26,618 nucleotides of DNA from a virus, in IMG/VR virus record IMGVR_UViG_3300031111_000384, positions 1 to 26,618 of that record. One strand, written 5' to 3'. A program made the position numbers and the translations under genes. Below the pieces are notes generated by a model. It had not been told where the DNA came from, searched no databases, and was given only the letters and a program-made list of their open reading frames with translations. Shown piece by piece: positions 2-15,874 of the stretch. Every line of letters begins with the position of its first letter. The stretch's first letter is position 1.

Positions 2-2836
2 CCCCAACTGGGACGAGCTCTTATCCACATCTGCCAGCGTCGGGGCTTCAAAAGTAACAGGAAGAGGGAACCAAAACCTGAAGAAAAGGCCACCGAGAGG
101 CAGAAGGCGAGGCAAGAGCTGGCGAAAGAACTCAAGTCTCGTGATATAACATTGGGGCAGTACTTGGCGGATTTCTACCCGCCAGATCGCGACCGGCAGG
201 CTCATCGCCAAAAGAGGCGGTGGATCCGCAACCGCGACGCTTCTGAGACTTACAACTACACATCGCGTGCGATGTACATCAAAGAGTTCGAGAAGATCTG
301 GTCCACGCAATCTGCCTTTCATCCGATCCTTGCCGCTACCGGGCTGAAGGGCAGCGTGTACGATGCCATATTCTACCAGCGGCCTATGTGGTGGCCCGCG
401 GATACCATCGGCACATGCGAACTGACAGGCGAACCGCGATGTCCCAAGGCTCACTGGGCCGGACAGGAGTTCCGCCTTCTGCAGGAGATCCGCAATCTTC
501 AGGTTGTGGATGAATCGACAGGCGAAGAACGCTTCCTGAACGAGGATGAGAGGGAACGTCTGCACGAACTCCTGTCCGGGCAGAAAACTGCAACGTTTGC
601 CGGGATTGCCAAGAAACTGTGGCCTGACCAGCCAATGCGATTCAGCCGCTTCGAAGACAATGCCAAGCGCAAGGGCCTCACAGGCAATTGCGTGGAGGCG
701 GGGCTGCGAAGGGCACCGCTGAAAGCATGGTGGAAAGGTGCATCCGACCAGGTCAAGGAAGAAGTGTTCGACGCTCTGGTCGCCGTGGACGTCAAGGAGG
801 TGGCCGGAAAGAGGCGTGTTTACGGGGCCGACCAAGAGGCGATTCTCGGAAACGCGGATCGCTGGGGTTTGAGTCCAGAGCAGACCGAGGCGATGGATAA
901 GCTATCGGCCGATCTACCTGATGGTTATTTGGAGTACTCCCTCTCGGCCATCAGAAGGCTCCTTCCTCACCTGAGGAAGGGGCAGAGAGTTGATCAGGCG
1001 GTTGAGGCTGCAGGCCTCTCTGTAATGGATGCCCCGGTCTGCGACTTCTTGCCGCCCGTTGACGCCGTTGTTTCATACCTCACCAACCCCTTGGTTCACC
1101 GGGCACTGTCCGAGGCGCGCAAGGTGGTGAACGCGTTGATTCGCGAACACGGCAAGCCTTCTCGTGTGGTCATTGAACTGGCACGCGAGATGAAACAGTC
1201 ACGCAAGCATCGCGCCAAGGTTCTGAGCGAGAACAAGGGCAGAGAGAAGGAACGTGAGGCTGCCAAGGTGGAGGTCGAGAAGCTCGGACTCAGCGGGGAA
1301 AACAACGCCAATATCCGCAAGTATCTCCTGTGGACGGAATACAGGCAGTGCTGCGGAGAGCCATGTCGCTGTCCATTCTGTGGCCGGAACATCAGCGAGG
1401 CGGATATGGCCTCGGGGCGCGTTCACATCGAGCACATCCTTCCGAGATCTCGCTCGCTCGACAACTCCTTCAACAACCTGGTGCTGGCTTGCGCCCAGTG
1501 CAACGCCGACAAGGGACAGCTGACGCCATTCGAACGATGGGGCGACGAGCCGGAGCGGTGGGAGCAGATCAAGGCTCTCAAAGCCAAGTTGCCATATCCC
1601 AAAGGGAGGCGTTTTGACACGCGACTAACGATGGAAGGAGCGCGCGACCATTTATTCGAGGACAGAGTGGGCAAGATGCTCAATGATACTCGGTATACCT
1701 GTCGGCAGGCCTCGAAGTACATGGCCGTGCTTGGCATGCCCGTCAGCGTTGTAAGTGGAACAGTCGTCGGCCCGCTGAGGCACTACTGGGGGCTGAACGG
1801 CATTAGCGGAATGGGTCCGTCCGACGCCAAGAATCGCACAGACCACCGTCACCATGCCATTGACGCCATCACCATAGCCAACATAACGCACAAGCACATA
1901 CATGGTCTTTCCAACAAGCTGAGGGATCGAAATGCTGAGTTCCCGTGGCCTTGGGAGTCCTTCCACAGGGATGTCGGCGAGGTCATTGCAGATATAGGCG
2001 AGGGCACCCGTCAGGGAGTATCCCACCGACCCGGACGTTCGCTGTCCGGAGGACTACACGAGGATACCGCCTACGGTCCCGTCAATCCGGAAGAAGGCGT
2101 ATTTGTGACCCGGAAGCCTGTTGGCAAACTCACCCCCGCATTAGTCAACAGTGACGATATTCGCGATCCTGCGATGCGCAAGCTGATCCGTCGCGCGTGC
2201 GTGGACAGCGGGCTCGCAAAGTCCGCCGGACCCCAGTCCAAGGATGCATGGCAGCTTGACGGCCGGTGGTACACCATTGCGAAGGACAAACACTTCGGAG
2301 CCAAGCTTGCCAAGGAACCTATCCGCATGGTCTCAGGCGTGCCCGTTAAACGAGTGCGGATACTCATACGAGACAGGTCGGCCGTGCCTGTGCGCAGCGG
2401 ACCCGACGGGCAGGCAGACAAGTACGTAATACCCGGAGACAACCACCACCTGGCGATCTATCGGATGCCCGCCGGCGACCTCAAAGGTGAAATCGTGTCG
2501 CTTTTCGAAGCGAACCGGCGCAAGTCGCACGGCGAGGCCGTCGTGAACCCTTCCTATGGCGACGGAGGGGAGCTTGTAATGCGGCTCTGTAAGAACGACA
2601 TGGTTTTGCTTACAGACCCGGAATCCGGGCAGAAGAGGCTCTATCGTGTGCAGACGATGTCGCTAGACAATCAGAGACTGGATGTGCGGTTCCGCCTTCA
2701 CACCGCTGCAACCATCGCTGATAAAGTAGAACGGGTCCGCCCCCGATCATGGAAGGACCTTGCCGCTCATCGATTACAGAAGGTCGAGGTGGACCCGTTG
2801 GGTGGTGTGCATCCTGTGGGGCAGTGTCTGGAATGA
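2..2836 (+). CDS. cas9: Type II-C CRISPR effector nuclease Cas9, 5'-truncated by the window edge
   Basis: RNA-guided DNA endonuclease of a type II CRISPR system. The frame is open from base 2, so the TTG at 152 is not the start. The first visible residues include RRGFKSNRK, typical of the region just after the bridge helix of II-C Cas9; RuvC-I and the bridge helix lie upstream of the window. About 944 residues are visible. RuvC-II is VIELAREMKQS (Glu codon 1175). The HNH domain has paired CxxC motifs (CPFCG, CAQCN) around VHIEHILPRS (catalytic His codon 1433) and the Asn-containing NSFNNLVLAC. RuvC-III is HHAIDAI (first His codon 1850, Asp codon 1862). All visible catalytic residues are present and the PAM-interacting C-terminus runs uninterrupted to the stop. 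The stop overlaps the cas1 start (ATGA), so cas9-cas1-cas2 form one operon. The absence of csn2 or cas4 nearby supports subtype II-C. Confidence 0.97.
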   Translation, partial: PQLGRALIHICQRRGFKSNRKREPKPEEKATERQKARQELAKELKSRDITLGQYLADFYPPDRDRQAHRQKRRWIRNRDASETYNYTSRAMYIKEFEKIWSTQSAFHPILAATGLKGSVYDAIFYQRPMWWPADTIGTCELTGEPRCPKAHWAGQEFRLLQEIRNLQVVDESTGEERFLNEDERERLHELLSGQKTATFAGIAKKLWPDQPMRFSRFEDNAKRKGLTGNCVEAGLRRAPLKAWWKGASDQVKEEVFDALVAVDVKEVAGKRRVYGADQEAILGNADRWGLSPEQTEAMDKLSADLPDGYLEYSLSAIRRLLPHLRKGQRVDQAVEAAGLSVMDAPVCDFLPPVDAVVSYLTNPLVHRALSEARKVVNALIREHGKPSRVVIELAREMKQSRKHRAKVLSENKGREKEREAAKVEVEKLGLSGENNANIRKYLLWTEYRQCCGEPCRCPFCGRNISEADMASGRVHIEHILPRSRSLDNSFNNLVLACAQCNADKGQLTPFERWGDEPERWEQIKALKAKLPYPKGRRFDTRLTMEGARDHLFEDRVGKMLNDTRYTCRQASKYMAVLGMPVSVVSGTVVGPLRHYWGLNGISGMGPSDAKNRTDHRHHAIDAITIANITHKHIHGLSNKLRDRNAEFPWPWESFHRDVGEVIADIGEGTRQGVSHRPGRSLSGGLHEDTAYGPVNPEEGVFVTRKPVGKLTPALVNSDDIRDPAMRKLIRRACVDSGLAKSAGPQSKDAWQLDGRWYTIAKDKHFGAKLAKEPIRMVSGVPVKRVRILIRDRSAVPVRSGPDGQADKYVIPGDNHHLAIYRMPAGDLKGEIVSLFEANRRKSHGEAVVNPSYGDGGELVMRLCKNDMVLLTDPESGQKRLYRVQTMSLDNQRLDVRFRLHTAATIADKVERVRPRSWKDLAAHRLQKVEVDPLGGVHPVGQCLE

Positions 2837-3744
2837 TCAAACGCACGATTGAGATATCGGGGTTGGGCAATCGCCTTTCAGTCTCGAACGGCTCGCTGGT
2901 AGTGGAGCGGGACGGAGAGAGGCTCGCCCTCATCCCCGTCGAGGACATCGGTGTGCTTGTTCTGGATGCATGCGATACCGTTTACACGCATCGCACCATC
3001 ACATCCGTGCTTGAGGCCGGCGCCGCAATTGTTCCCTGCGGGTCCGACCACCTGCCGGCTGCCATGTTTCTGCCCCAGAACAACTCGCTGCAAACCCAAC
3101 GCATGGCAATGCAGGCGGGAGCGCCTATCCCCTTGCGAAAGAGGCTCTGGAAGCAGGTGGTCCGGGGGAAGATCGCCAACCAGGCCAGGGCCGTCGGATG
3201 GAGCGCCGATTTGGGCAAGAAGCTCAGGAAACTTGCTGGAACAGTGAGATCGGGAGATCCCCATAACGTCGAGGCGCACGCCGCAAGAATCTACTGGCCC
3301 GCAATGTTCGGCAAGCAGTTCCGCAGGGACCGAAACGGGCCTTGCCCCAACAGCCTGCTGAACTACGGGTACATGGCTCTTCGTGCGGCTGTGGCAAGGG
3401 CCATCTGCGGTGCGGGTTTGCATCCCTCGTTGGGTCTGCACCACAAGGGCCGATGCGATACCCACTGTCTTGCCGACGACCTGGTTGAGCCCATCCGACC
3501 ACTGGTTGACCTGTCGGTTCAGGCCTTGTGGCATCAAGGCTGCAAGGACATAACGCGCCGGACCAAGCAGGAGTTGCTCGGTCTGCTGACCGCTGAGGTC
3601 GAGGTCGCCGGGCAGCGTGGCCCGCTGTTGGTGGGTCTGGCGCGCATGGCGGCTTCTCTGGTTTATTGCTACGCAAGACGCCGCAAAGATATGGAGCTGC
3701 CTGTACTGTGCAAATCAGCGGATACAGATGCATGTGGGTCGTAG
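2833..3744 (+). CDS. cas1: CRISPR adaptation integrase Cas1
   Basis: Metal-dependent integrase that, with Cas2, inserts new spacers into the array. The protein is 303 aa, the usual length for type II Cas1. Catalytic residues by position and motif: Glu147 in NVEAHAARIYW, His203 in PSLGLHH, Glu219 in CLADDLVEPIRP. The typical N-terminal beta domain begins IKRTIEISG. The start codon overlaps the cas9 stop by four bases, so translation is probably coupled; the TTG-initiated extension to 2749 lies inside cas9 and was rejected. The C-terminus overlaps cas2 by 13 bases. The intact active site suggests the adaptation module was functional when the prophage block became its neighbour. Confidence 0.97.
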   Translation: MIKRTIEISGLGNRLSVSNGSLVVERDGERLALIPVEDIGVLVLDACDTVYTHRTITSVLEAGAAIVPCGSDHLPAAMFLPQNNSLQTQRMAMQAGAPIPLRKRLWKQVVRGKIANQARAVGWSADLGKKLRKLAGTVRSGDPHNVEAHAARIYWPAMFGKQFRRDRNGPCPNSLLNYGYMALRAAVARAICGAGLHPSLGLHHKGRCDTHCLADDLVEPIRPLVDLSVQALWHQGCKDITRRTKQELLGLLTAEVEVAGQRGPLLVGLARMAASLVYCYARRRKDMELPVLCKSADTDACGS

Positions 3745-4037
3745 CCATGTTCGATCTTCCGACGGATACGGAACGGGCCAGGAGGGCCTACACGCAGTTT
3801 CGCAGGTCGCTTATCAAAGACGGATTCACTATGATGCAGTACTCTGTTTACATCAGGCACTGTGCGAGCGAAGAGAACGCCGACGTTCACAGCAGCCGAG
3901 TAAAATACTCACTTCCCCCGGAAGGCGAGGTCCGCCTGGTCAGAATCACGGACAAACAGTATGAGAGAATGCAGGTTTTCTGCGGGAGAAAACGCCGGGT
4001 GCCCGAGCAGCCACCCCGCCAACTCGAGCTTTTCTGA
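3732..4037 (+). CDS. cas2: CRISPR adaptation protein Cas2
   Basis: Small dimeric partner of Cas1 in spacer acquisition. The start was placed at the ATG at 3732 because the protein then begins MWVVAMFDLPTD, the canonical Cas2 first beta-strand with its conserved Asp (residue 8); the longer frame from 3666 lies inside cas1. Length is 101 aa, normal for type II Cas2. The end carries a short QLELF tail also seen in II-C Cas2 proteins. It is the last cas gene; the first CRISPR repeat starts 50 bases after the stop. That short interval has no clear hairpin terminator or obvious AT-rich leader. Leftward transcripts from the array would run antisense across this gene. Confidence 0.95.
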   Translation: MWVVAMFDLPTDTERARRAYTQFRRSLIKDGFTMMQYSVYIRHCASEENADVHSSRVKYSLPPEGEVRLVRITDKQYERMQVFCGRKRRVPEQPPRQLELF

Positions 4038-4087
4038 TCGAGTAAGCGGGGCCAACTGCCTTTTTAAACCAAGCTTACAACAACTGC

Positions 4088-4321
4088 AGTGTAACAAACC
4101 CTGATCTGAGATCAATCCACGACTTGGTATCTGCGGGGCTCTCGACTCGCCTCAGTGTAACAAACCCTGATCTGAGATCAATCCACGACAGGCGACGGAG
4201 GGGGAGCCGCCGCCTCAAGAGTGTAACAAACCCTGATCTGAGATCAATCCACGACAGCTGATCGGCATGCCTATTGCTCCATCGGAGTGTAACAAACCCT
4301 GATCTGAGATCAATCCACGAC
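4088..4321 (-). CRISPR. Type II-C CRISPR array, four repeats and three spacers
   Basis: Four identical 36-bp repeats at 4088-4123, 4154-4189, 4220-4255 and 4286-4321, separated by three 30-bp spacers (period 66). On the plus strand the repeat begins AGTGTAACAAACC and ends ATCCACGAC, and it contains a 13-bp palindrome, TGATCTGAGATCA. Read on the minus strand it begins GTCGTGG and ends TTACACT, which fits the crRNA-sense form of II-C repeats, so leftward transcription is inferred. No repeat is degenerate at either end. The array stops ten bases before the stop codon of the regulator gene at 4332, leaving no room for a leader on the inferred upstream side. The short array may be truncated. Confidence 0.97.
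4286..4321 (-). promoter_or_regulatory. Putative promoter inside each CRISPR repeat (shown for repeat 4)
   Basis: On the minus strand every repeat reads TTGATC, 16 bases, TACACT at its 3' end: 4/6 matches to each sigma70 box with near-ideal spacing. Initiation about seven bases later would start inside the next spacer. This parallels N. meningitidis, where each repeat carries a promoter whose -10 box is the repeat terminus and spacers are also 30 bp. The motif is seen; its activity is inferred. Confidence 0.5.
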
Positions 4322-4331
4322 TACGCCAGTT

Positions 4332-4532
4332 CTACACCAGCTTCTTCAACGCCACTCCGATCGCCTGGGCCAGCCGTTCGGCCTGCTGAATCGACGGCGA
4401 TCTCAGACCGCGTTCGTAGAGCGACCACAGAGGCTGAGGTACACCGGCGCGCTCCGACGCCTCGGCCTGAGTGATCTTCTTTTCCCGGCGGAGGCGGCGG
4501 AGGTTGTCTGCGAATTCGGTCATGTTCGCCAT
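4332..4532 (-). CDS. XRE-family helix-turn-helix transcriptional regulator
   Basis: Small DNA-binding protein of 66 aa, probably a Cro/C1-type prophage regulator. It is essentially one HTH_3 domain: NLRRLRREKKITQAEASERA, then a recognition-helix region around PQPLWSLYERG and the usual SIQQAERLAQAIGV third part. The start was placed at the ATG at 4532, which has AAAGG eight bases upstream; a GTG at 4574 would add 14 residues before the domain. The gene is last in a leftward operon of small genes. An inverted ATATGC/GCATAT pair sits directly over its ribosome-binding site, and the same half-site flanks the operon promoter near 5360-5410, so autoregulation is likely. Its stop is only ten bases from the final CRISPR repeat. 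With no dimerisation domain it resembles Cro more than CI. Confidence 0.85.
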   Translation of the reverse strand: MANMTEFADNLRRLRREKKITQAEASERAGVPQPLWSLYERGLRSPSIQQAERLAQAIGVALKKLV

Positions 4533-4535
4533 TGT

Positions 4536-4551
4536 ATATGCCTTTGCATAT
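4536..4551 (-). promoter_or_regulatory. ATATGC inverted repeat over the regulator's ribosome-binding site
   Basis: A perfect 6-bp inverted repeat, ATATGC-N4-GCATAT, just upstream of the regulator ATG; the AAAGG Shine-Dalgarno straddles its loop. It could be an operator for the XRE protein or an mRNA hairpin hiding the ribosome-binding site. The half-site recurs at the operon promoter (5360-5410), which favours an operator. Confidence 0.5.
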
Positions 4552-4592
4552 GCTGTCACTACTCCACGTGACACGTCCTTGGGCTCGGCGCT

Positions 4593-4838
4593 CTAAAGCC
4601 CGGCCTCTTCGCAGAGCAGTTTCTCGATGTTTTCCGGTTCCTGGTTCGACAGGAAGGCGACGGCTCGGACCAGCTTGGCCCGGATGTTTCCCAGATCCCC
4701 GGCGTAGCCCCAGTCGTTGGGATTCGCCTTCGCGTTGGTCTTGTGCTTGTCGAGTTCGAGATCGAGCCAGTCGATCAGGCGGGCGATCTCCTCGCGGCGC
4801 TCGCTGTACAGGTCTCCGGCAGTCTGTTTGGCCTTCAT
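4593..4838 (-). CDS. Small hypothetical prophage protein
   Basis: An 81-aa charged protein with no recognised family. Residues about 10-35 (SERREEIARLIDWLDLELDK) and 52-75 look alpha-helical, so a small helical bundle is likely. It has no membrane segment or signal. The start has a strong ribosome-binding site (GAAAGGAGA, about 8 bases upstream). It is the third gene of the four-gene leftward operon ending with the XRE regulator, 61 bases before that gene's ATG. Early phage regulatory or accessory function is only a guess from position. Codon use looks ordinary and the strong start supports a real gene. Confidence 0.7.
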   Translation of the reverse strand: MKAKQTAGDLYSERREEIARLIDWLDLELDKHKTNAKANPNDWGYAGDLGNIRAKLVRAVAFLSNQEPENIEKLLCEEAGL

Positions 4839-4859: not shown

Positions 4860-5087
4860 TCAGGCCTTGCAGGTGGCCCTGTCGTGTGCGCGAATGCGGT
4901 ATGTCTCGATGTGGCAGGTGTAGGCGTTGTCGACGATCAGCTTGACCGTCACGGTGTCGTGGCTGCTGGGGTAGGCGTCGAAGACCTCGAACCAGCCGTT
5001 GGCGAACCAGATCACATCGCCCGGCTTGAGGTCGTGCCAGTCGCGTTGGGTGGTGTTCCTTGTGTTTCGTTTTGTGGCGTTCTTCAT
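4860..5087 (-). CDS. Small hypothetical prophage protein, beta-rich
   Basis: A 75-aa protein that I do not recognise. After a basic N-terminus (KNATKRNTRNTTQRD) it has DLKPGDVIWFANGWFEVFDA, a pattern typical of small SH3-like or Hedgehog/intein-type beta barrels (GD-turn followed by paired strands), and ends in more beta-prone sequence. Two cysteines (HIETY region and C-terminal CKA) show no metal-binding spacing. The ATG is preceded by GAGGAGA. It is the second gene of the leftward operon; the next gene starts 21 bases downstream. Function is unknown. Confidence 0.7.
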   Translation of the reverse strand: MKNATKRNTRNTTQRDWHDLKPGDVIWFANGWFEVFDAYPSSHDTVTVKLIVDNAYTCHIETYRIRAHDRATCKA

Positions 5088-5356: not shown

Positions 5357-5384
5357 ATGATATGCGATTACATATATTAGTCAA
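5357..5384 (-). promoter_or_regulatory. Leftward promoter of the XRE regulator operon
   Basis: On the minus strand TTGACT (5379-5384) and TATCAT (5357-5362) are separated by 16 bases, a strong sigma70-like match about 45 bases before the first gene. The -10 box overlaps the left arm of an 11-bp inverted repeat (next entry), so a bound regulator would block it. Confidence 0.6.
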
Positions 5385-5410
5385 GCGGGAAAATATACTT
5401 AATCGCATAT
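5360..5410. promoter_or_regulatory. Operator pair: 11-bp inverted repeat around the operon promoter
   Basis: ATATGCGATTA at 5360-5370 is perfectly inverted as TAATCGCATAT at 5400-5410, bracketing the leftward promoter. Both arms contain the ATATGC half-site found over the regulator's ribosome-binding site. This is consistent with two operator sites for the XRE protein. Confidence 0.55.
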
Positions 5411-5426
5411 ATTATTCGGGCCGCAA

Positions 5427-5440
5427 TTACAGATCTGTAA
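5427..5440. promoter_or_regulatory. Perfect 14-bp palindrome
   Basis: TTACAGATCTGTAA is a perfect palindrome, 17 bases right of the operator pair in a gene-free stretch. It resembles a dimeric regulator site, but no cognate protein can be named. Confidence 0.4.
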
Positions 5441-5588
5441 CGATTTGCCTTTCCCTGCCGGAGAAGCCTTGACTACTACCGTCCACGCCGGGAGATTGTA
5501 GTCTGAAGCACGAAGACGCGACTGACGGACGAGACAACCTAGCAGAGCGACGCGGCGGCTGATCACCGACGCGATGCCAATAGAACAC

Positions 5589-5629
5589 AAGGCCGCTTGG
5601 GGCCAAGCACCCCTGCGGCCTTTTCTTTT
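5589..5629 (+). terminator. Intrinsic terminator upstream of the tRNA and late operon
   Basis: AAGGCCGC (5589-5596) pairs perfectly with GCGGCCTT (5615-5622). GGGG/CCCC pairing continues inside, and the stem is followed by TTTTCTTTT on the plus strand. It would stop rightward transcripts from the 5410-5590 interval, in which no gene was seen. It may end a small RNA or be a relic of a lost upstream gene. The rest of 5313-5737 holds the promoter, operators, palindrome and tRNA listed separately. Confidence 0.8.
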
Positions 5630-5653
5630 GGCCGGCTCTGCCAGGTGCGGCAC

Positions 5654-5726
5654 TGCAGGATGGACTGGAGCGGTTCCAGCACGGCCTCATAAGCCGACGA
5701 CGCCGGTTCGAATCCGGCTCCTGCGA
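5654..5726 (+). tRNA. tRNA-Met (CAU)
   Basis: A cloverleaf can be drawn. The 7-bp acceptor stem TGCAGGA/TCCTGCG includes one G-U pair. The D stem CTGG/CCAG has four bases before it instead of two. The anticodon arm CGGC-CTCATAA-GCCG has CAT at 5688-5690. The T arm GCCGG-TTCGAAT-CCGGC is perfect, and the discriminator is A with no encoded CCA. The irregular D-arm offset and short anticodon stem are the weak points. The CAU anticodon could also be a lysidine-modified Ile tRNA. It lies 11 bases before the first late gene, where a phage would normally carry terminase. Confidence 0.7.
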
Positions 5727-5737: not shown

Positions 5738-5935
5738 ATGGCGGAAGACCTGAACAGTGCGATCCAGACCGGCGCCACCCAGCCCAAGCGGGGCAAGGGG
5801 GATGGCATCGAGTTCGAGCAGCGCGGCCTGGACGAACTGATCAAGGCCGACAAGCACCTGGGCGCCAAGGCGGCGCTTTCGGGCAAGCGGCCCAAGCTCA
5901 TGGTGAACCGCATGGTTCCCCCCGGAGCTTCATAG
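5738..5935 (+). CDS. Small conserved protein preceding the portal gene
   Basis: A 65-aa protein. Its layout (AEDLNSAIQTGATQPKRGKG, a central DELIKADKHLGAKAAL helix, C-terminal MVNRMVPPGAS) resembles the small proteins that commonly sit between terminase and lambda-type portal genes in prophages. Their role is not well defined, but head-assembly accessory or gpW-like functions have been suggested. Its stop shares one base with the GTG of the portal gene, so translation is coupled. The ribosome-binding site is weak. In related phages the gene directly upstream is the terminase large subunit; here a tRNA takes that place. Confidence 0.75.
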   Translation: MAEDLNSAIQTGATQPKRGKGDGIEFEQRGLDELIKADKHLGAKAALSGKRPKLMVNRMVPPGAS

Positions 5936-7377
5936 TGGGCAAAAGACGCAGAAAGCGAAGGCCGACCGAACGCCGTACGACCGCGCGGCGAGCAGTCGTC
6001 GTGCCGTCACACATGCGCGCCCGCTACGACGCCGCACAGAGCACGCCCGACAGTCGCAGGCACTGGGCGAACGCCGACGGGCTGGACGCCGTCCGTGCCA
6101 ACGCGGCTGCCGTCCGCGCGAGGCTCCGCAGGTATGCCCGCTACGAGGTCGCCAACAACTCCTACGCCAGGGGCATCGTCCTCACGCTGGCCAACGATAC
6201 GATCGGCACGGGTCCGCGACTCCAGATGCTTGCTGAAGACGTGCAGGTCAACCAGACCGTGGAGCGCGAGTTCGCGGCCTGGTCGAAGGCCGTCGATCTG
6301 CCGGCCAAGCTCCGCACGATGCGGATGGCCCGGGCGCAGGACGGCGAGGCCTTCGCGATGATGTTCTCCAGCTCGTCGAGCTGGCCGGTATCTCTCGACC
6401 TGCGCCTGGTCGAAGCGGACCAGATCGAGACGCCTTCGCTGGTCAACAGGGAATACACCGAGGGTATCAAGTTCGACAGCAACGGCAGGCCCAAATCCTA
6501 CGCCGTCCTGAAGAGCCATCCCGGCGGGCTGAAGTCGACCACGGAGTTCGAGCATGTCGACAGCGAGTATGTCATTCACTGGTTCCGCCGGGACAGGCCC
6601 GGCCAGATACGTGGCATTCCCGACATCACGCCGGCGCTGCCTCTGTTCGCGCACTTGCGACGTTACACGTTGGCGGTCATCGTCGCGGCCGAGATCGCCG
6701 CGGAGTGGACGATGTTCCTCAAGACAAATGCTTCCCCGGACGGCGAGCACAGGCCCATCGAAGGCGGAAGCGGCGGGTTCGACGAGATCGAGATCGAACG
6801 CGGCCTCATGACCACGTTGCCGGAGGGTTGGGAGCCGAGCCAGCTCAAGGCTGAACAGCCGACCACGACCTACGAGATGTTCAAGCGGGAGATCCTCAAC
6901 GAGATCGCTCGCTGCCTGAACATCCCCTACAACATCGCCGCCTGCAACTCGTCGGGCTACAACTACGCCTCGGGGCGACTGGACCATCAAACATACTTCA
7001 AGAGCATCCGCGTCGAGCAGACACAATGCGAGGCCGTCGTGCTCGATCCCATCCTGGACGCGTGGATCGACGAGGCCTCGCGGACGTTCGGCTTCCAGCT
7101 CGAGAACCGGCCCCATCAGTGGTTCTGGGACGGCCACGAGCACGTGGACCCGGCCAAGGAAGCCTCGGCCCAAGCGACCCGCCTGGCCAGCCATACCACC
7201 ACGCTTGCCCACGAGTATGCCCGGCAGGGCAAGGACTGGGAGACCGAACTGCGCCAGCGCGGCAAAGAAACGGCTCTGATGAAGGAGCTTGGCCTGACGG
7301 TTTCGCAAAGCGCCCCGTCGGAGCCGACAGAGAAAGACCGCGAAGAGGACGAGGTCGAGGAAGGAGCTGAGGCATGA
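5935..7377 (+). CDS. Phage portal protein, lambda gpB-like
   Basis: Forms the dodecameric ring at the unique capsid vertex through which DNA is packaged and ejected, and to which the neck attaches. The protein is 480 aa, typical for the lambda-type portal family. Recognisable features are the N-terminal RYDAAQSTPDSRRHW segment, NNSYARGIVLTLANDTIGTG, the LRLVEADQIETP strand, and the family signature around VIHWFRRDRPGQIRGIPDITPAL. A central loop-helix region and an acidic, disordered tail (SEPTEKDREEDEVEEGAEA) follow. The start is GTG at 5935, overlapping the previous stop. The gene overlaps the capsid gene by four bases. It begins the intact structural operon. Confidence 0.93.
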   Translation: MGKRRRKRRPTERRTTARRAVVVPSHMRARYDAAQSTPDSRRHWANADGLDAVRANAAAVRARLRRYARYEVANNSYARGIVLTLANDTIGTGPRLQMLAEDVQVNQTVEREFAAWSKAVDLPAKLRTMRMARAQDGEAFAMMFSSSSSWPVSLDLRLVEADQIETPSLVNREYTEGIKFDSNGRPKSYAVLKSHPGGLKSTTEFEHVDSEYVIHWFRRDRPGQIRGIPDITPALPLFAHLRRYTLAVIVAAEIAAEWTMFLKTNASPDGEHRPIEGGSGGFDEIEIERGLMTTLPEGWEPSQLKAEQPTTTYEMFKREILNEIARCLNIPYNIAACNSSGYNYASGRLDHQTYFKSIRVEQTQCEAVVLDPILDAWIDEASRTFGFQLENRPHQWFWDGHEHVDPAKEASAQATRLASHTTTLAHEYARQGKDWETELRQRGKETALMKELGLTVSQSAPSEPTEKDREEDEVEEGAEA

Positions 7378-9434
7378 AGTTCTTCAGGAAGCGATCAGGC
7401 ACAAAGACCGTGCAGGCCGGCGGGGATACCACCGATCGGTTCGACCTGTCCGCCGACGCTGTCGTCGAGATCGAGGCCGCAGCCGAAGGCGAATCGCCAA
7501 AGCGCCCAACGTTCAACATCGACGCCTATTCCGGAGGTCTTCTGCGCGTGGCGGCCTTCTATCGGCCTGTCGTGGTCGACCTGGCAGGTTTGCGAGCGGG
7601 GCGAGTGACCGTGCTGAGAGACCACGACCCGTCGCAGATCATCGGCCAGGGGACCGCCAAGGTCACCAAGAGCAAAATCACCGTCGCCGGGCAGGTGACC
7701 GGCGATCACAGCGACAGGAACGACCCCGCATACAGCGTGGTCGCGCACAGCAAAAACGGCTTCGTCTGGTCGGCGTCGGTTGGCGTGTCGGTCGAACGGG
7801 TCGAGTACGTCGATGCCGGGGCGAAGGTCAAGGTGAACGGCCAGACCTTCACAGGGCCCATCGGAGTTGTTCGGGCCGGTCGGCTCGGAGAGGTCTCGTT
7901 CGTCGGTATTGGCGCAGACGAGACCGCGTCAGGAAAGATTGCGGCGACAGCCGCTGGAAGCAAGGAGAACACGATGGACGAGTTCAAGAAGTGGCTGACC
8001 GCAAAGGGCTGGGACTTCGACGCGCTCAGCGAAGATCAGCGGAAGACCCTGAAGGCTCAGTTCGACGCCGAGCAGGAGCCTCCGGCAGACGAGCCAGAAG
8101 AGCAGCCGGCTGAGAAGGTCGAGGCAGCCGCACAGACCGATCCGCTCGACCAGGAGCGCAAGGTTCGCGCGGCAGAGGTCCGCCGCGTCGGGGCAATACA
8201 GAAAGTCTGCGCAAACAAGCACGCGGACATTGAGGCGAAGGCCATCGAGGAGAACTGGTCGGTCGAGAGAACCGAACTGGAGGTCCTCAAGGCGTCGCGC
8301 CCGACGCCTCCGGCGGTGCATGCCAGCCAGCCGGTCGATGCGGAGCCGACCGTGATCGAGGCGGCGCTGTGCATGCACGGCAAGCTGCCGGGCGTTGAGA
8401 AGGCCTACGGCACCGAAGTGCTGGAGGCCGCGGACAAGGGCTTCCGCCACCTGGGCCTCCAAGAGACGCTGCTGATGGCCGCGGCACTGGGCGGCTACTC
8501 CGGGCGCCAGCGCATCAGCAACGGCAATGTTCGGCAGGTGCTCCATGCAGCGTTCAGTACGATGAGCCTGCCGGGCATCCTCTCCAACGTGGCGAACAAG
8601 TTCCTGCTGGACTCGTTCAACGCGGTGGAGTCGGTGTGGCGGCGCATCGCCGCGATCCGGTCCGTCTCGGACTTCAAGACGGTAACCAGCTACCGGATGA
8701 CCGGCACGCTCGAGTACGAGCAGGTCGGCCCGGACGGCGAGATCAAGCACGGAAAGGTGGATGAGGAGTCGTTCACCAACAAGGCCGACACCTACGGCAA
8801 GATGCTGTCGATCACCCGGACCGACATCATCAACGATGATCTGGGCGCCCTGACGAGCGTTCCCGCCAAGCTCGGACGCGGCGGCGCTCTCAAGCTCAAC
8901 GACGTCTTCTGGACGGCCTTCCTGAACAACAGCGCTTTCTTCAAGAGCGCCAACAAGAACGTGTCGACCTCCTCGGCACTGAGCATCGCCGGCCTGACCA
9001 AGGCGATCGTGGTGTTCCGCAAGCAGACCGACAGCGACGGCAAGCCTCTGGGCATCACCCCGGAGATACTGCTGGTCCCGGTCGATCTGGAGGTCCCCGC
9101 CGGCCAGCTCTACAACGACCGAGTCGTCAACGAGGTCACGGCCGAAGGAAAGCCGGCGCCCAACGGCAACCCCCATGCCGCCAAGTACACCCCGGTGGCG
9201 TCGAGCTACCTGTCCAACTCCAAGTACACCGGCTACAGCACGACCAGCTACTACCTGCTGGCCAATCCCGCGAGCCTGGCGGTCATCGAGATCGCGTTCC
9301 TCAACGGACAGGAGAACCCGACCGTCGAGACGGCGGAGGCGGACTTCAACACCCTCGGAATCCAGATGCGAGGCTACCACGACTTCGGGGTGAGCCTCCA
9401 GGAGCCAAAGGCGGGCGTCAAGGCGACGGCCTAA
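7374..9434 (+). CDS. Prohead protease / major capsid protein fusion
   Basis: A single 686-aa polyprotein supplying maturation protease, scaffold and HK97-fold capsid subunit. Residues about 45-190 form a serine protease like those of caudovirus proheads: His84 in LRDHDPSQ, and the nucleophile in WSASVGVSV (Ser133 or Ser135, the latter best fitting SxG). Residues about 200-320 are acidic and coiled (DEFKKWL to VLKASRP), matching a scaffolding delta domain. From about 380 the sequence is Mu gpT-like major head protein (LSNVANKFLLDSFNAV, KMLSITRTDIINDDL, C-terminal GYHDFGVSL). Such fusions are a known family. The protease should cut itself and the scaffold from the capsid part. An ATG at 7974 inside the frame (MDEFKKWL) could give a separate scaffold-capsid product. 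Confidence 0.93.
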   Translation: MKFFRKRSGTKTVQAGGDTTDRFDLSADAVVEIEAAAEGESPKRPTFNIDAYSGGLLRVAAFYRPVVVDLAGLRAGRVTVLRDHDPSQIIGQGTAKVTKSKITVAGQVTGDHSDRNDPAYSVVAHSKNGFVWSASVGVSVERVEYVDAGAKVKVNGQTFTGPIGVVRAGRLGEVSFVGIGADETASGKIAATAAGSKENTMDEFKKWLTAKGWDFDALSEDQRKTLKAQFDAEQEPPADEPEEQPAEKVEAAAQTDPLDQERKVRAAEVRRVGAIQKVCANKHADIEAKAIEENWSVERTELEVLKASRPTPPAVHASQPVDAEPTVIEAALCMHGKLPGVEKAYGTEVLEAADKGFRHLGLQETLLMAAALGGYSGRQRISNGNVRQVLHAAFSTMSLPGILSNVANKFLLDSFNAVESVWRRIAAIRSVSDFKTVTSYRMTGTLEYEQVGPDGEIKHGKVDEESFTNKADTYGKMLSITRTDIINDDLGALTSVPAKLGRGGALKLNDVFWTAFLNNSAFFKSANKNVSTSSALSIAGLTKAIVVFRKQTDSDGKPLGITPEILLVPVDLEVPAGQLYNDRVVNEVTAEGKPAPNGNPHAAKYTPVASSYLSNSKYTGYSTTSYYLLANPASLAVIEIAFLNGQENPTVETAEADFNTLGIQMRGYHDFGVSLQEPKAGVKATA

Positions 9435-9462
9435 GCGAATCCTTTCGGTGCGGTGTGGCCCG

Positions 9463-9492
9463 GGCCGGGCGGTCGATGACGGTCGCCCGGCC
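9463..9492 (+). other. Strong stem-loop between the capsid and cement genes
   Basis: GGCCGGGCG (9463-9471) pairs perfectly with CGCCCGGCC (9484-9492) around a 12-base loop. There is no U-tract, so it is more likely a partial attenuator or mRNA-stabilising hairpin that sets the ratio of downstream to capsid expression than a full terminator. Confidence 0.5.
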
Positions 9493-9554
9493 TGAGACTC
9501 CGCAGGAAACGAGACCTTTTCTCAAGTTCAGAGCTTCTGAAAGGAAGGACGGAC

Positions 9555-10373
9555 ATGAAAGCGACTTTCATACAGGACGGACGGGCCGTCGATTACACGC
9601 CGGGTTCGGACGTTGCCGCCGGCGACGTGGTTGTTCTCGGCAACCTCGTCGGGATATCGAAACTGCCGATTATTGCCGGATCGCTGGGAGCGCTGGCGGT
9701 CAACGGGATCTTCGACGTGGTTCAGGGAGCGGTGACGTTCACCCTCGGCCAGGCAGTCTATTGGGATGCCGACGGCGATCCCGTAGGTGGAGTGGCCGGC
9801 AGCGGCTGCGCAGTGGAATCAGCCACGGGCAACACGTTTATGGGCTACGCCCTCGGGGCGACCGAGGCAACCGACACGACCGCCCGCGTGCTGCTCCGCA
9901 GCGTCGAGGATTCGGCGGCCGAGGCCCTGTCATTGGGCGACCTTGGCGACGTTGGCGCGGTGGCATACGACGCCGGGCGGATACTGATTGCCGATGGCGA
10001 CAGCTACGAGGACCAGCCTCTCAGCGGTCCGCTGACACTGAGCGACGCGGGCAACGTCGCAGTGGCTTCCGCTACTGTCGCTGCGGCCGGTTCGGCGCAG
10101 GGCGACGCGGCGGCGCTGGCCGAAGGCTTCACGCTGGTAACGGCGGCTGACGGCACGAAGGGCGCAAAGCTTCCCGCCGCCGCCGCGGGCAAGCTCTGCA
10201 TCGTCAAGAACGAGGATTCGGCCAACGCAGTGCTCAAGCTCTATCCGAACACCGATGACGCGATCAACGCGCTGTCGGCCAACGCGGCACTGAGCATGGC
10301 GGCCAAGACGTCGGCCGTGCTCGTCTGCTACGACGGCACGACCTGGTACACCGTCCCGCTGCTGCCTTCGTAG
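9555..10373 (+). CDS. Capsid cement (decoration) protein, DUF2190-like, with C-terminal extension
   Basis: Likely binds the outside of the expanded capsid and stabilises it. Residues 1-115 match the DUF2190 pattern: MKATFIQDGRAVDYTPG, AGDVVVLGNLVGI, VFDV-type strands and QAVYWDADG, then a run of small beta-strands. A low-complexity Gly/Ala linker follows. A second beta domain ends KLCIVKNEDSANAVLKLYP and YDGTTWYTVPLLPS, a C-terminal module I associate with other phage virion proteins. The total of 272 aa is about twice the length of simple DUF2190 proteins because of this extension. The ATG has an AAAGGAAGG ribosome-binding site, and position right after the capsid gene is diagnostic. Confidence 0.85.
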   Translation: MKATFIQDGRAVDYTPGSDVAAGDVVVLGNLVGISKLPIIAGSLGALAVNGIFDVVQGAVTFTLGQAVYWDADGDPVGGVAGSGCAVESATGNTFMGYALGATEATDTTARVLLRSVEDSAAEALSLGDLGDVGAVAYDAGRILIADGDSYEDQPLSGPLTLSDAGNVAVASATVAAAGSAQGDAAALAEGFTLVTAADGTKGAKLPAAAAGKLCIVKNEDSANAVLKLYPNTDDAINALSANAALSMAAKTSAVLVCYDGTTWYTVPLLPS

Positions 10374-10385
10374 TCCGCCAATAGC

Positions 10386-10763
10386 ATGACCGACCTGCTC
10401 GAACAAACTGCCTCGTGGCTGGACGCGATGCGATCTTCGCATCTGTCGCGGACCATCGTTTACAGCCGCGGGGCACTGTCGGTCGCAGTTCTGGCCATGA
10501 TGGGCGGCGAGGCCTACGAGGTCTCCGACGAGTACGGCGTGACAACCCGGGCCCGGTCCGCGGATTTCGTGATGACGGGTGCCGATCTCGTGCTGGGCGA
10601 CGAGACCGTCACGCCGGCCCCAGGTGACAGGATCACCGTGGTAGTGAGCGGCAAGACGCTGGTCTTCGAGGTGATGAACCTGGGCGGAGCAGGCCACTAC
10701 AGACCGAATGACCCCTACGGCAAGTCGATTCGTGTGCACGCCAAGTGCGTGGAGGCGGCATGA
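10386..10763 (+). CDS. Putative head completion / neck protein
   Basis: A 125-aa protein between capsid and tail genes, where head-tail connector genes lie. It has a short N-terminal helix (LEQTASWLDAMRSSH) and then a beta-rich fold: TIVYSRGALSVAVLAM, RSADFVMTGADLVLG, GDRITVVVSGKTLVFEVM. It ends with YRPNDPYGKSIRVHAK, a C-terminal pattern I recall from prophage neck proteins often annotated as hypothetical or head-tail joining proteins. It probably closes the portal channel or bridges to the tail. Function is assigned mainly from position and fold impression. Its stop overlaps the next start (ATGA). Confidence 0.65.
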   Translation: MTDLLEQTASWLDAMRSSHLSRTIVYSRGALSVAVLAMMGGEAYEVSDEYGVTTRARSADFVMTGADLVLGDETVTPAPGDRITVVVSGKTLVFEVMNLGGAGHYRPNDPYGKSIRVHAKCVEAA

Positions 10764-10978
10764 CAAAGTCGAGTGAACCGAAGATAGCCGTCCCGCTGGA
10801 CGAATGGGCGGAAGCGCTAATCGACAGGACGCTGGAACGTCACCTGAACACCTGCCCGGTCCGAGAGAGAGTTGAGAAGCTCGAGGTCCGACTGGCCAGC
10901 CTGATTGCGTTCATGGCCGGGTCCGGCCTTCTCGGCGGGACGGTGGGTGCGGTGATAGCGAAGATTGCGGGAGTCTGA
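10760..10978 (+). CDS. Small protein with C-terminal membrane segment
   Basis: A 72-aa protein. The start at 10760 has GGAGGCGGC directly upstream and overlaps the previous stop; a longer TTG-type start at 10745 was rejected. The N-terminal half is charged and helical (LDEWAEALIDRTLERHLNTC, then RERVEKLEVRLASL, a short coiled coil). The C-terminal 25 residues (AFMAGSGLLGGTVGAVIAKIAGV) form one hydrophobic segment. The layout resembles XhlA-type phage proteins that anchor a coiled coil to the membrane, but sequence identity to them is not evident. It could be a lysis accessory or a small membrane protein embedded in the neck gene cluster. Confidence 0.65.
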   Translation: MTKSSEPKIAVPLDEWAEALIDRTLERHLNTCPVRERVEKLEVRLASLIAFMAGSGLLGGTVGAVIAKIAGV

Positions 10979-11421
10979 TGTCCAGGATCACAGATATTGT
11001 GGACGCCGTGGCCGCAGAACTCAACACCGGCGTCGCGGCCGACAAGTTCAGCCTGTCCTTCGTAGCGGCCAGGCATTACGTGCCTCGCTTCAATCTGGAG
11101 GACATGGCCGATCTCCACGTAACGATCGTGCCCAGGGGCGTCGAGCAGGCCAAGGCCAGCCGGGTTCTGTTGCAGTCCGACGTGCAGGTCGACGTCGCCG
11201 TGCAGAAGAAACTCGACGCCTGCAGTTTGGCCGAGGTCGACGAGCTGATGGGCTTGGTCGAGGAGATCTCCGACTTCCTCCGGACGAACCGTCTGTCGGC
11301 TTGTTCCCAAGCGTCGTGGGTCAGGGCAGAGAACGTGCCCGTCTATTCACAGGAGCACCTGGATCAGTACCGACAGTTCACCAGCGTCGTCACGCTCACG
11401 TTCCGCGTGATGTCGCAATGA
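10978..11421 (+). CDS. Putative tail terminator / tail completion protein
   Basis: A 147-aa alpha/beta protein in the neck-to-tail position. Features: N-terminal helix RITDIVDAVAAELN, long strands with VQVDVAVQKKLD, a helix AEVDELMGLVEEISDFLRTN, and a final strand FTSVVTLTFRVM. This order (helix, strand with a xVDVxVxxK motif, helix, strand) is the layout of tail terminator proteins such as lambda gpU, which cap the tail tube and join it to the head. No close relative is named, so the call relies on position plus fold. Its ATG shares a base with the previous stop. Confidence 0.65.
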   Translation: MSRITDIVDAVAAELNTGVAADKFSLSFVAARHYVPRFNLEDMADLHVTIVPRGVEQAKASRVLLQSDVQVDVAVQKKLDACSLAEVDELMGLVEEISDFLRTNRLSACSQASWVRAENVPVYSQEHLDQYRQFTSVVTLTFRVMSQ

Positions 11422-11431
11422 GGATGCGCAG

Positions 11432-11797
11432 ATGGCAAAGGACAAATGGCTCAACGGGGTATTGCTGAAGGTTGACGACGAGACCGAGGCATTGCTGGTA
11501 AAGCTGATCGATGCCTACCGCGCGATCTCCGCTCCGGCGGCGGTGACGGCCACGACGGGCCAGTGGACGGCAATCGACCTGCCGGAAGGCGTGCGATATC
11601 TCCACGTCGGCGTCTCTGAAGAGACCTACCTGGTGACTAAGACGGACACCGGAGAGCCGTCCGGCGTCGGCTGCGCCTACGCGGCCGAGGGCAATCACGA
11701 GATCGACTGTGCCGGCTGCACGAAGTTGTATGCCAGGCCGGTCGGTGGCAGCGATTCGACTGTTACGTGGACGCCGTTCGAGTTGGTGAGCGACTGA
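11432..11797 (+). CDS. Hypothetical phage structural protein
   Basis: A 121-aa protein of unknown function in the head-tail joining cluster. An N-terminal helix (EALLVKLIDAYRAISAP) precedes a beta-rich part with GQWTAIDLPEGVRYLHVGV and ETYLVTKTDTG. Two cysteines bracket a short turn (DCAGC). A small beta-sandwich that decorates the virion or attaches to another subunit is plausible. The ribosome-binding site GAGGA precedes the ATG. It has no membrane segment or signal peptide. Its relation to the similarly beta-rich protein at 14202 was not demonstrable by eye. Confidence 0.7.
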   Translation: MAKDKWLNGVLLKVDDETEALLVKLIDAYRAISAPAAVTATTGQWTAIDLPEGVRYLHVGVSEETYLVTKTDTGEPSGVGCAYAAEGNHEIDCAGCTKLYARPVGGSDSTVTWTPFELVSD

Positions 11798-11802
11798 GGA
11801 CC

Positions 11803-12132
11803 ATGACCGAAACGCGGATAACCAGCTTCGCTACCGACTGGGCGCGGATACCCATCGGCGTGCCCGATGGCCGCGACTTCCCCGCCGACCTGTTGGCCTA
11901 CACGCGCGAGCATAACATGGCCGCCGGGTACATCCGCACGCCCGTCTGCCATCAGCATGTCGAGGACTGCTATACCGTAACGCTGATGAATTTCAACGAG
12001 CGACAGGCCGAGGCCAAGCGCATGCGAGGCGACGCCATCAAACTCGCCGGCCACTTCGCTAGGCTTTACGGACAGAACGTGGTGACTGTGGTCTTTCCGG
12101 ATCAGACGGTCAACGTGAGGGTTGAGCCGTGA
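11803..12132 (+). CDS. Hypothetical phage neck/tail protein
   Basis: A 109-aa protein; the ATG at 11803 follows GAGGACC and was preferred over the frame's upstream start inside the previous gene. It shows TRITSFATDWARIPIGVPDG, a Cys/His cluster (TPVCHQHVEDC) and a C-terminal pattern of helix plus strands (RHEARLYGQNVVTVVF-like, then DQTVNVRVEP). The Cys/His cluster has too few ligands to claim a zinc site. The stop overlaps the next gene's GTG (GTGA), so coupling is likely. Position suggests a tail completion or connector role, but this is unproven. Confidence 0.7.
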   Translation: MTETRITSFATDWARIPIGVPDGRDFPADLLAYTREHNMAAGYIRTPVCHQHVEDCYTVTLMNFNERQAEAKRMRGDAIKLAGHFARLYGQNVVTVVFPDQTVNVRVEP

Positions 12133-13280
12133 TCATCGACTCGCACACAACCCGGCGCGGCAACAAGGTAATCGTCCACGCGATCTGCCGAAACGTGCAG
12201 GTGGATGGGCAGTGGGTGCGGATCGAGGACGTGCTGACGGTCAAGCGAACCGGTCGCGCGTACGTCGTCCAACTCGGCGACGAGTGGATCCGCTTCGAGC
12301 CTCGCGGCAAATCGGATTCGGAGGTCCTGGTCGCCGCCGAGATCGGCGAGCAGCTCGATCCGTGGCACTTCGGCCCGCTTCTGGATATCTCCCAGATCGG
12401 CGCGGACCGCTTGGAATTCCAGATCAGTCGGAGCAAGGGCGTTTCGTTCGATGCAAGGGCGGACTCGCTTCGTTTCGACGAATGCAGGGAACTCGGCCTG
12501 TGCCTTCGCCGCTGGAAAGAGCAATTCGGCGAGGACCTGGCCGTCGCGGACCTGGATGGCGGAGATCTGCGCTTGGAGCTTGCGGCCATTCGCCAGGCCG
12601 ACGCGGACATGGCCCGAGACAGCGACCTGACCAAAGTCCGCAGACCGCTGGACCTCGACCCGGAGCCGGTAGTCGTGGACGCGAGTTTTCGCTCGCATTT
12701 CCACGCCGTCGATCCGATGGCCCCGGACCCGTGGAGCGACCTGCACGACGCGGCCTCATCTACGTCGAGCGAGTCGACGCCGAACCTGTATCTGAACTGG
12801 ATCCCCGGCAAAGCGGCTCAGTTGCGTCGAGCTATCTTCAACTTCGACACTTCCGCCCTCGACGAACCGCTGGAAGCGTATTTCAAGCTGCATCGCGTCG
12901 GGGCGGCCGCGGGGGAGAACCGCCTGATCGACGGAGGCTACGGAGAGTCTGCACTGTCCACGGCCAGCCACTACGGCGCGATCGAAGACAACGTAGCGGC
13001 CCACACGATCGGCGCGATGACCGAGCCGGTGGCCAATACGCTCTGCTCGCCGGAGCTGGTCGCGGGGGGCTGGTGGGACTCGCTGAGCAAGTTGCGGTTC
13101 GGCCTGATGCAGGCGGCAAACGACTTTGCTGATTCGGCCCCGGCCGGCTCGGAGAACCTGAGCTACTCCTACACCGCGAGCGGGGACAACGCCCCGCGGC
13201 TCGAACTGACCTACCCGGCCAGCGCGACCGGCGGAGGCACGTCCACGTCCACCGGCGCGGGCAGGAGGCGCAGGCGATGA
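12129..13280 (+). CDS. Virion-associated protein with C-terminal DNRLRE-like beta domain
   Basis: A 383-aa protein starting at a GTG that overlaps the previous stop. The N-terminal 200 residues are beta-rich (IIDSHTTRRGNKVIVHAICR, VLTVKRTGRAYVV, LEFQISRSKGVSFD) and include a possible helical stretch to about 175. The C-terminal part, about 200-360, has AQLRRAIFNFDTSALDEPLEA, AYFKLHRVG and a closing DNAPRLELTYP. This is the beginning and end pattern of DNRLRE-type jelly-roll domains seen in secreted and surface proteins. It ends in an Arg run (GAGRRRRR). A surface or fibre-like role is possible. Such a large beta protein between connector and gp10-like genes is unusual. Family assignment of the domain is tentative. 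Confidence 0.75.
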   Translation: MIIDSHTTRRGNKVIVHAICRNVQVDGQWVRIEDVLTVKRTGRAYVVQLGDEWIRFEPRGKSDSEVLVAAEIGEQLDPWHFGPLLDISQIGADRLEFQISRSKGVSFDARADSLRFDECRELGLCLRRWKEQFGEDLAVADLDGGDLRLELAAIRQADADMARDSDLTKVRRPLDLDPEPVVVDASFRSHFHAVDPMAPDPWSDLHDAASSTSSESTPNLYLNWIPGKAAQLRRAIFNFDTSALDEPLEAYFKLHRVGAAAGENRLIDGGYGESALSTASHYGAIEDNVAAHTIGAMTEPVANTLCSPELVAGGWWDSLSKLRFGLMQAANDFADSAPAGSENLSYSYTASGDNAPRLELTYPASATGGGTSTSTGAGRRRRR

Positions 13281-13714
13281 TCCGGTTCGTGGGCAGAAAC
13301 ATGTTCTTCAACCGCAAGGCCGTTACCGGCGCGGTGGACAAGGCCGCGCGGCGCGTGCTGAGCCGCTTCGGCGCGTTCGTTCGTCGCGGCGCGAAGTCGT
13401 CCATCCGCAAGCGCAAGCGCGTCAGCCTGCCGGGCGAGCCGCCCAGCAGCCACTCCGGCCTGCTGAAGCGATTCATATTCTTCGGCTACGACCGTCAGAG
13501 GCGAAGCGTGGTCATCGGCCCGATGCGGCTGAACCAGAAAGTCGGCGACGCGCCCGAGGCGCTCGAGGAAGGCGGAACATCGACCATCGTCGCCGGCCTT
13601 CGCGGCCGTCGCAGGAAACGACGCGTGAAAGTCAAGGCCAGGCCATTCATGGGCCCGGCATTCGAAAAGGAAAAACCGAAGCTGCCCGGCATGTGGGCGA
13701 ACTCGGTCAGGTGA
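13277..13714 (+). CDS. HK97 gp10-like tail component / minor head-tail protein
   Basis: A 145-aa very basic protein that overlaps the previous gene by four bases. It resembles HK97 gp10 / minor tail Z family proteins that act at the head-tail joint: an N-terminal helix (VDKAARRVLSRFGAFVRRGAK), SLPGEPPSSHSGLLKRFIFF (the GxPP.xxxG.L element of the family), VVIGPMRL, and the C-terminal ARPFMGPAF motif (family pattern xRPFLxPA). Length matches the family. The region of about 20 Arg/Lys before the end is stronger than usual. It sits one gene upstream of the tail tube, as expected. Confidence 0.82.
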   Translation: MIRFVGRNMFFNRKAVTGAVDKAARRVLSRFGAFVRRGAKSSIRKRKRVSLPGEPPSSHSGLLKRFIFFGYDRQRRSVVIGPMRLNQKVGDAPEALEEGGTSTIVAGLRGRRRKRRVKVKARPFMGPAFEKEKPKLPGMWANSVR

Positions 13715-13729
13715 GAGGAGCATACCAAA

Positions 13730-14167
13730 ATGGCAGATTATGTACTTGGAATGAACGCCGGGCTCTACCAGGCGGCGGCGGGCTTGACGGACCCGGACGC
13801 GATGACGAAGGTGGACAACGTCCGCGACGTGAATCTCTCGCTCGAGGCGGGCGAGGCGGACATCACCACGCGAGGCAACTCCGGCTGGCGGGCCACCGCG
13901 CCGACGCTGCGCGAGTGCACCGTCGAGTTCCAAATGGTCTGGCAGCCGACCGATCCGGTCTTCACGGCGATCAAGAACGCCTTCCTCACCGCGGGCACAG
14001 TCGCGCTGGCGATACTAGACCAATTGCGGACCGTCACCGGAGCCCAGGGTCCGGTCGGCGACTTCGCAATCACCAACTTCAGCCGCAACGAGGCGCTGGA
14101 GGAGGCCATCGTCGCCGACGTGACGGCCAAGCTGTCCAGGTTCGAGGAATGGCACACGGTCTCCTAA
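13730..14167 (+). CDS. Major tail tube protein
   Basis: A 145-aa protein with a good ribosome-binding site (GAGAGGAG). It likely forms the hexameric rings of the non-contractile tail. Sequence features match siphovirus tail tube proteins: an N-terminal strand with KVDNVRDVNLSLEAGEADITT, then a turn (RGNSGWRATAPTLRECTVEF), a helix (DPVFTAIKNAFLT) and a final strand with VADVTAKLSRFEEW. The KVDNVRDV...GEADITTRG element is the usual tube N-terminal loop/strand. Position directly before the chaperone/tape-measure region supports the call. Confidence 0.82.
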   Translation: MADYVLGMNAGLYQAAAGLTDPDAMTKVDNVRDVNLSLEAGEADITTRGNSGWRATAPTLRECTVEFQMVWQPTDPVFTAIKNAFLTAGTVALAILDQLRTVTGAQGPVGDFAITNFSRNEALEEAIVADVTAKLSRFEEWHTVS

Positions 14168-14201
14168 CGGCAGACCACAGGCCTGAAACAGGAGAGATGC
14201 A

Positions 14202-14531
14202 ATGGCATTACTGACGAAGCAGGCGGCCGCACGCGCCGCCAATGACCTGACGTTCACGACGTCCAGCGACGACGGGGACACCTTCGAGACCAACGGGACG
14301 GAGGCCCTGCTCGTCCGCAACAACAAGGCCGGCACGATCACGCTGACGGTGACCACGCCCAAGACGGTGGACGGCCTGGCCGTGGCGGACCTGACCATCG
14401 AGGTGGGCACCGACGAGGTCGCGCTGCTCGGACCCTGGCCTTCGTCGATCTACGGCGACGGCGACCGCATCGTGAGCATCGACGCCGGGGCCGACTACGC
14501 CGACGTGGAATACGCGCTGATCTCGATCTAG
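14202..14531 (+). CDS. Small beta-rich structural protein between tail tube and tail chaperone
   Basis: A 109-aa protein with GGAGAG before its ATG. After a short Ala-rich helix it is almost wholly beta: TFETNGTEALLVRNNKAGTI, TLTVTTPKT, DLTIEVGTDEVALLGPWPSS, YADVEYALIS. This resembles small beta-sandwich phage proteins found with capsid or tail genes (cement-like or Ig-like). It could decorate the tail tube or be a second head decoration protein placed out of its usual position. Function is unknown; the reading frame is secure. Confidence 0.75.
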   Translation: MALLTKQAAARAANDLTFTTSSDDGDTFETNGTEALLVRNNKAGTITLTVTTPKTVDGLAVADLTIEVGTDEVALLGPWPSSIYGDGDRIVSIDAGADYADVEYALISI

Positions 14532-14544
14532 GAGACTTGCGGCG

Positions 14545-15015: not shown

Positions 15016-15017
15016 CG

Positions 15018-15275: not shown

Positions 15276-15286
15276 AGGAGTCGGAA

Positions 15287-15838: not shown

Positions 15839-15874
15839 TCCCGCCAACGCGTCCTATTGCAGGAAGGAAGACCG

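Follow-up and report, generated by a model that had tools for sequence, protein, structure and literature searches.

A type II-C CRISPR-Cas module, probably phage cargo, next to a regulator operon in a sequence related to temperate Planctomycetota phages

We present an analysis of an IMG/VR record of 26,618 bases (hereafter the window, meaning the whole stretch that was analysed), which probably belongs to a temperate, tailed Planctomycetota phage (the record covering part of it) with a complete type II-C CRISPR-Cas module as its cargo. The array of this module appears to be driven mainly by promoters in its repeats, and it abuts an operon whose transcripts may read through into it. Taken by itself, the assignment of the module to the phage is quite likely correct. 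More interesting than the junction of array and operon, in our view, is that II-C CRISPR-Cas9 occurs in a family of Planctomycetota phages; type II systems of phages are already known.

From left to right, the window contains cas9, cas1, cas2, the array and a leftward XRE gene, followed by three small leftward genes, a tRNA-Met gene, a gpW-like gene, a lambda-type portal gene, and capsid and tail genes. The right end consists of a leftward integrase gene, the 3' half of a tRNA and two more leftward genes. The features are as follows.

2–2836, plus strand: cas9 (type II-C), with its first ~109 codons beyond the contig end
2833–3744, plus strand: cas1 (type II, NMENI family; TIGR03639, E 3e-67)
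3732–4037, plus strand: cas2 (TIGR01573, E 1e-19)
4038–4087, no strand: cas2-array interval of 50 nt, by position the II-C leader and spacer-acquisition end
4088–4321, minus strand (predicted crRNA strand): CRISPR array of four identical 36-nt repeats and three 30-nt spacers
4322–4331, no strand: junction of last repeat and XRE stop codon, ten bases, no terminator
4332–4574, minus strand: XRE (Cro/C1-type HTH) regulator, 80 aa as called
4531–4559, minus strand: predicted XRE promoter GTGACA-N17-TACAAT, with the dyad ATATGC-CTTT-GCATAT (4536–4551) between the hexamers
4593–4838, minus strand: orfA, a phage gene; its homologs in L039 and L070 are leftward and precede terminase/portal
4860–5087, minus strand: orfB, unassigned, GC3 0.87 as in phage genes
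5112–5312, minus strand: orfC, a conserved phage gene, with the reading frame open to 5408
5357–5410, minus strand: predicted operon promoter TTGACT-N16-TATCAT (promoter-like site 5384–5357)
5654–5726, plus strand: tRNA-Met(CAT), phage-borne, recurring before the gpW-like/portal genes in L017, L018, L039 and G407
5738–21300, plus strand: head and tail module (gpW-like, lambda-type portal, capsid/protease, tail tube, tape measure)
21426–22784, minus strand: tyrosine integrase (PF00589), of a family common in Planctomycetota genomes
22893–22934, minus strand: tRNA 3' half (anticodon loop to acceptor), an attP-like core facing the integrase, sole copy in the window

The cas9 product matches NCBIfam TIGR01865 (E 5e-132, model positions 110–1069 of 1070) and the Pfam families HNH_4 and RuvC_III. 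Its catalytic motifs IELARE, HIEHILP and HRHHAID are intact in the visible part, and RuvC-I falls beyond the contig end. The gene set cas9-cas1-cas2 abuts the array and, among the visible genes, neither csn2 nor cas4 occurs between cas2 and the array; on account of this gene content we assign the system to type II-C. A search for an anti-repeat within the window found none. In relatives the anti-repeat sits upstream of cas9, a region that is off this contig, and the tracrRNA is presumably encoded just upstream of cas9 in the window's element as well. The repeats start at 4088, 4154, 4220 and 4286 and are all perfect copies (0 expected by chance), with spacers of 30 nt each at 4124–4153, 4190–4219 and 4256–4285. 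The exact repeat is absent elsewhere in IMG/VR. No target was found for the spacers, two of which have no exact 20-mer match in IMG/VR, and partial hits of spacers from related phages did not exceed shuffled controls.

The main evidence for phage cargo comes from related phages. A scan of genomes and viral contigs with a single Cas9 sequence gave no match; Cas9 loci were found instead by scanning with an alignment of plasmid-borne Cas9s, which yielded 17 loci in IMG/VR, three of them from the window's phage family. These three, G407, G408 and G418 (L217, L218 and L232, respectively), are contigs of related temperate phages with a complete cas9-cas1-cas2-array module of 30–59 repeats, and in each the module is clearly carried by the phage. 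Its position in the phage map differs: 1) int-cas9-cas1-cas2-array-early genes-leftward operon-terminase-portal-tail in G418 (46.6 kb), 2) terminase-portal-tail-cas-array in G408 (39.1 kb) and 3) terminase-portal-tail-cas-array-integrase-intact tRNA-Val in G407 (31.6 kb). The integrase gene of G407 is directed into the array, with 2 nt from its stop codon to a degenerate terminal repeat. GC3 of the cas genes is below that of the late genes in G407 and G408, and much less so in G418. Because related phages hold the whole module inside the phage, invasion of a host array does not have to be assumed, and insertion of a prophage into such an array probably did not happen. Another phage-borne II-C array has a leftward tail-chaperone gene (L226, 9573–9818) at a distance of 48 nt from its upstream end. 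In L221, a short leftward ORF next to the array was considered as a third example and dropped, its sequence looking spurious in our judgement. A phage record of 6.8 kb (L094, MT837457.1), obtained from human faeces, encodes a Cas9 relative with 26% identity.

A portal scan returned 80 relatives at 58–67% identity, and three more are present in one Thermoguttaceae genome. The leftward operon comprises four ORFs, from 5408 to 4332, in the order orfC-orfB-orfA-XRE. The initial annotation had attributed it to a phage, and this is supported by the homologs of orfC and orfA in related phages; all nine orfC homologs are leftward and upstream of terminase/portal. Terminase and replication genes were sought in the window, including the interval between array and portal, and none were found, a point against the cargo reading; the present copy may have arisen by deletion. 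The terminase is missing from its usual place between orfC and the gpW-like gene (window 5409–5653), and a terminator-like hairpin with a T run persists on the plus strand at about 5590–5635.

Thirteen of the 15 relatives of the integrase have an intact tRNA about 110 nt away, where the window has the 3' half only. A second copy of this core was sought leftward of the integrase to the contig start, and none was found. A single 3' half with no left copy would be expected if the element were unintegrated or if this were a tandem junction; the phage genes, the operon and the CRISPR-Cas genes then fall on the element's side. We infer from the single core and the gene order that this copy of the module is located inside the element. 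No attB match, and hence no host, was identified in 392 sampled genomes. The tRNA-half segment by the integrase is flanked by near-identical palindromes at 22799–22830 and 23063–23092 (GGATTCCTCAGTA...TACTGAGGAATCC), which are possibly recombinase or excision sites. Beyond the tRNA half, positions 23142–25520 encode a 792-aa pentapeptide-repeat protein and positions 25579–26592 a 337-aa protein of unassigned function, possibly membrane-bound.

The strongest competing explanation is that the II-C locus is chromosomal and that an adjacent prophage lost its left end, early genes and terminase, one deletion end at the array's old end having brought a shortened array next to the XRE operon. The absence of early genes and terminase from the window agrees with such a deletion, and so does the size of the array, which has three spacers where those of the related phages have about 30, 58 and about 30, a difference that makes it plausible that the old end was lost. 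Chromosomal II-C loci with similar repeats are moreover common in Planctomycetota. The cas genes, XRE, integrase and right flank have GC3 of 0.64–0.71, unlike the structural genes at 0.83–0.86, a split that also fits host DNA on both sides and thus counts against phage cargo, although G407 and G408 show the same trend. The lack of an attB match, of spacer targets and of an XRE homolog in the related phages likewise weighs against cargo. The array also has no degenerate terminal repeat at its right end, as the initial annotation observed. We surveyed 28 II-C arrays with a distal flank, chromosomal and plasmid, with gaps measured by crude ORF calls. Degenerate repeats were exclusively cas-distal, in 8 of the 28 (9 including one doubtful), never at the cas2 end, and they are commonly missing, 19 of the 28 arrays having a perfect or one-mismatch end repeat. 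Against a chromosomal locus stand the modules inside three related phages, the tRNA core present as a lone 3' half, and the fact that at the junction the XRE gene is intact, as is the last repeat; the early genes, for their part, may sit in an unsequenced part of the element. On balance we consider the chromosomal origin unlikely.

The direction of array transcription bears on a different proposal, made in the initial annotation, namely that a phage promoter replaced the CRISPR leader and placed crRNA supply under the control of the phage repressor. The array was taken there to be transcribed leftward, and we concur: anti-repeat/tracrRNA units upstream of cas9 indicate leftward transcription in 12 of 13 tested relatives with homologous repeats. 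In these relatives the anti-repeat is the reverse complement of the repeat and the terminator-like end is on the minus strand, so the crRNA should be the minus strand, and by homology the pre-crRNA of the window is predicted to run opposite to the cas genes, as reported for II-C arrays (PMC3936727, PMC8092290). Among 57 unique repeat sequences, reverse-complemented, matches to the -35 and -10 hexamers cluster at two shared positions, with a spacing of 16 or 17 nt in 46 and a joint score of 7.8 versus 5.9 in the opposite orientation. Every repeat in the window contains the promoter-like TTGATC-N16-TACACT (8/12 consensus match plus an extended TG), and the G418 repeat carries a perfect TTGACA. 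The II-C crRNAs of the window would consequently start mainly from a promoter inside each repeat.

Leader replacement is improbable for these reasons. II-C crRNAs are driven by repeat-embedded promoters, which make a leader promoter unnecessary (PMC8092290, PMC12638026), and the leader, or acquisition end, is located on the cas2 side in II-C (PMC12638026, PMC8092290). In the window this is the 50 nt beside cas2, still present, so no leader was replaced; the interval is also about 50 nt in G418, G408 and G407. The XRE operon sits at the opposite end of the array, which is its old, transcription-upstream end. Arguments for leader replacement drawn from other CRISPR types do not carry over to II-C, with its repeat-borne promoters and its acquisition end next to the cas genes, and the phage-borne modules of relatives likewise speak against the proposal. 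It draws support from the leftward course of the operon, the ten-base gap without a terminator and the probable operators at the two operon promoters, as well as from the G407 integrase gene that runs into its array in the same manner.

These features of the junction, most of them described in the initial annotation, are borne out by the sequence. The XRE stop codon, TAG, is at 4332–4334 and the last repeat ends at 4321, and all four ORFs point toward the array. No minus-strand terminator-like site was found in 4322–4574 and no plus-strand run of at least four A in 4256–4600, and the predicted fold of the junction RNA is no more stable than those of shuffled sequences (z -0.3). In the survey of 28 II-C arrays, the nearest downstream gene was directed into the array in about half, and the smallest non-overlapping gap was not below 40 bp by the crude ORF calls. 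The ten-base gap is tight relative to these arrays, yet the related phage G407 shows 2 nt.

The regulator itself matches HTH_31/HTH_3 at 1e-12 to 1e-10 (HTH_31 8.6e-13) and phrog_8 at 3.3e-15; a match to the RstR family (2e-10) is below the cut-off. Scanning viral contigs for it turned up a single weak relative, and no XRE homolog was found in the related phages to hand. A start codon at 4532 or 4523 would fit the predicted promoter better than the called start, and the dyad between the hexamers is likely an auto-operator. The predicted operon promoter bears the inverted sites ATATGCGATTA ... TAATCGCATAT, a dyad that is missing from ten relatives without XRE. In the window, an AT-rich promoter with ATATGC/GCATAT sites, common to the XRE promoter, replaces the region upstream of orfC. 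The distribution of ATATGC half-sites alone was set aside as weak evidence, promoter regions being AT-rich.

The junction could be an assembly chimera in which a host array was joined to phage sequence at a repeat edge, e.g. via a spacer identical to the phage start, given that phage sequence starts at most 10 bases from the repeat edge and that arrays are hard to assemble (the contigs of several relatives terminate inside the array); we consider this very improbable, since modules of this kind truly occur in related phages, including one where the junction has the same geometry and a 2-nt gap, and the usual final assembly k-mers are longer than a 36-nt repeat or a 30-nt shared spacer.

The reading we prefer, a phage-carried module with a repeat-driven array, implies the following mechanism. 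The promoter in each repeat would start crRNA leftward, toward cas2, and the short crRNAs would base-pair with tracrRNA to guide the Cas9 of the phage, probably against rival mobile elements. On its transcription-upstream side the array adjoins the 3' end of a lysogeny-type operon, and XRE-like operator sites are present at both putative promoters of this operon. As no terminator intervenes, its transcripts may enter the array, a possible additional source of pre-crRNA and thus of crRNA, and could continue as antisense RNA into cas2-cas1. XRE may therefore modulate the crRNA supply, which would not require it. A bolder version is that the phage wired its Cas9 guide array into the lysogeny operon, with XRE-controlled read-through setting both crRNA and cas2-cas1 antisense and tying phage-on-phage immunity to the lysis-lysogeny decision; we put this forward as a speculation that is doubtful at present.

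Complete II-C systems with adaptation genes in temperate phages of ordinary size would show that adaptive immunity can serve as cargo of lysogenic phages, here in a phylum that has received little study. Should the lysogeny operon supply the array as well, the way in which a phage links its own CRISPR to its life-cycle switch becomes testable.

G418, G408 and G407 share with the window homologous late genes and the order cas9-cas1-cas2-array, and G407 also has a leftward phage gene at the array edge. They differ in their 30–59 repeats and in that no XRE homolog was found in them, and G418 retains early genes between the array and the leftward operon. Phage-encoded CRISPR-Cas is exemplified by the type I-F system of ICP1, and virus-encoded type II and V systems have already been reported (Al-Shayeb 2022, as cited in PMC12607003; review PMC11656645). 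Common to these and, if its module is indeed phage-borne, the window is an effector with an array in a phage; the window has in addition the adaptation genes cas1 and cas2, and it differs in being of type II-C and from a temperate Planctomycetota phage family. With the type II-C systems of Neisseria, Campylobacter and Flavobacterium columnare the window shares the three-gene cas operon, 36-nt repeats and 30-nt spacers, as well as an array opposite to the cas genes with repeat-encoded promoters (PMC3936727, PMC8092290, PMC12638026), the last two traits being predictions for the window, the direction from its relatives and the promoters from repeat sequences. In contrast to those systems, the array of the window ends ten bases from a phage regulator gene, and the module is apparently carried by a phage.
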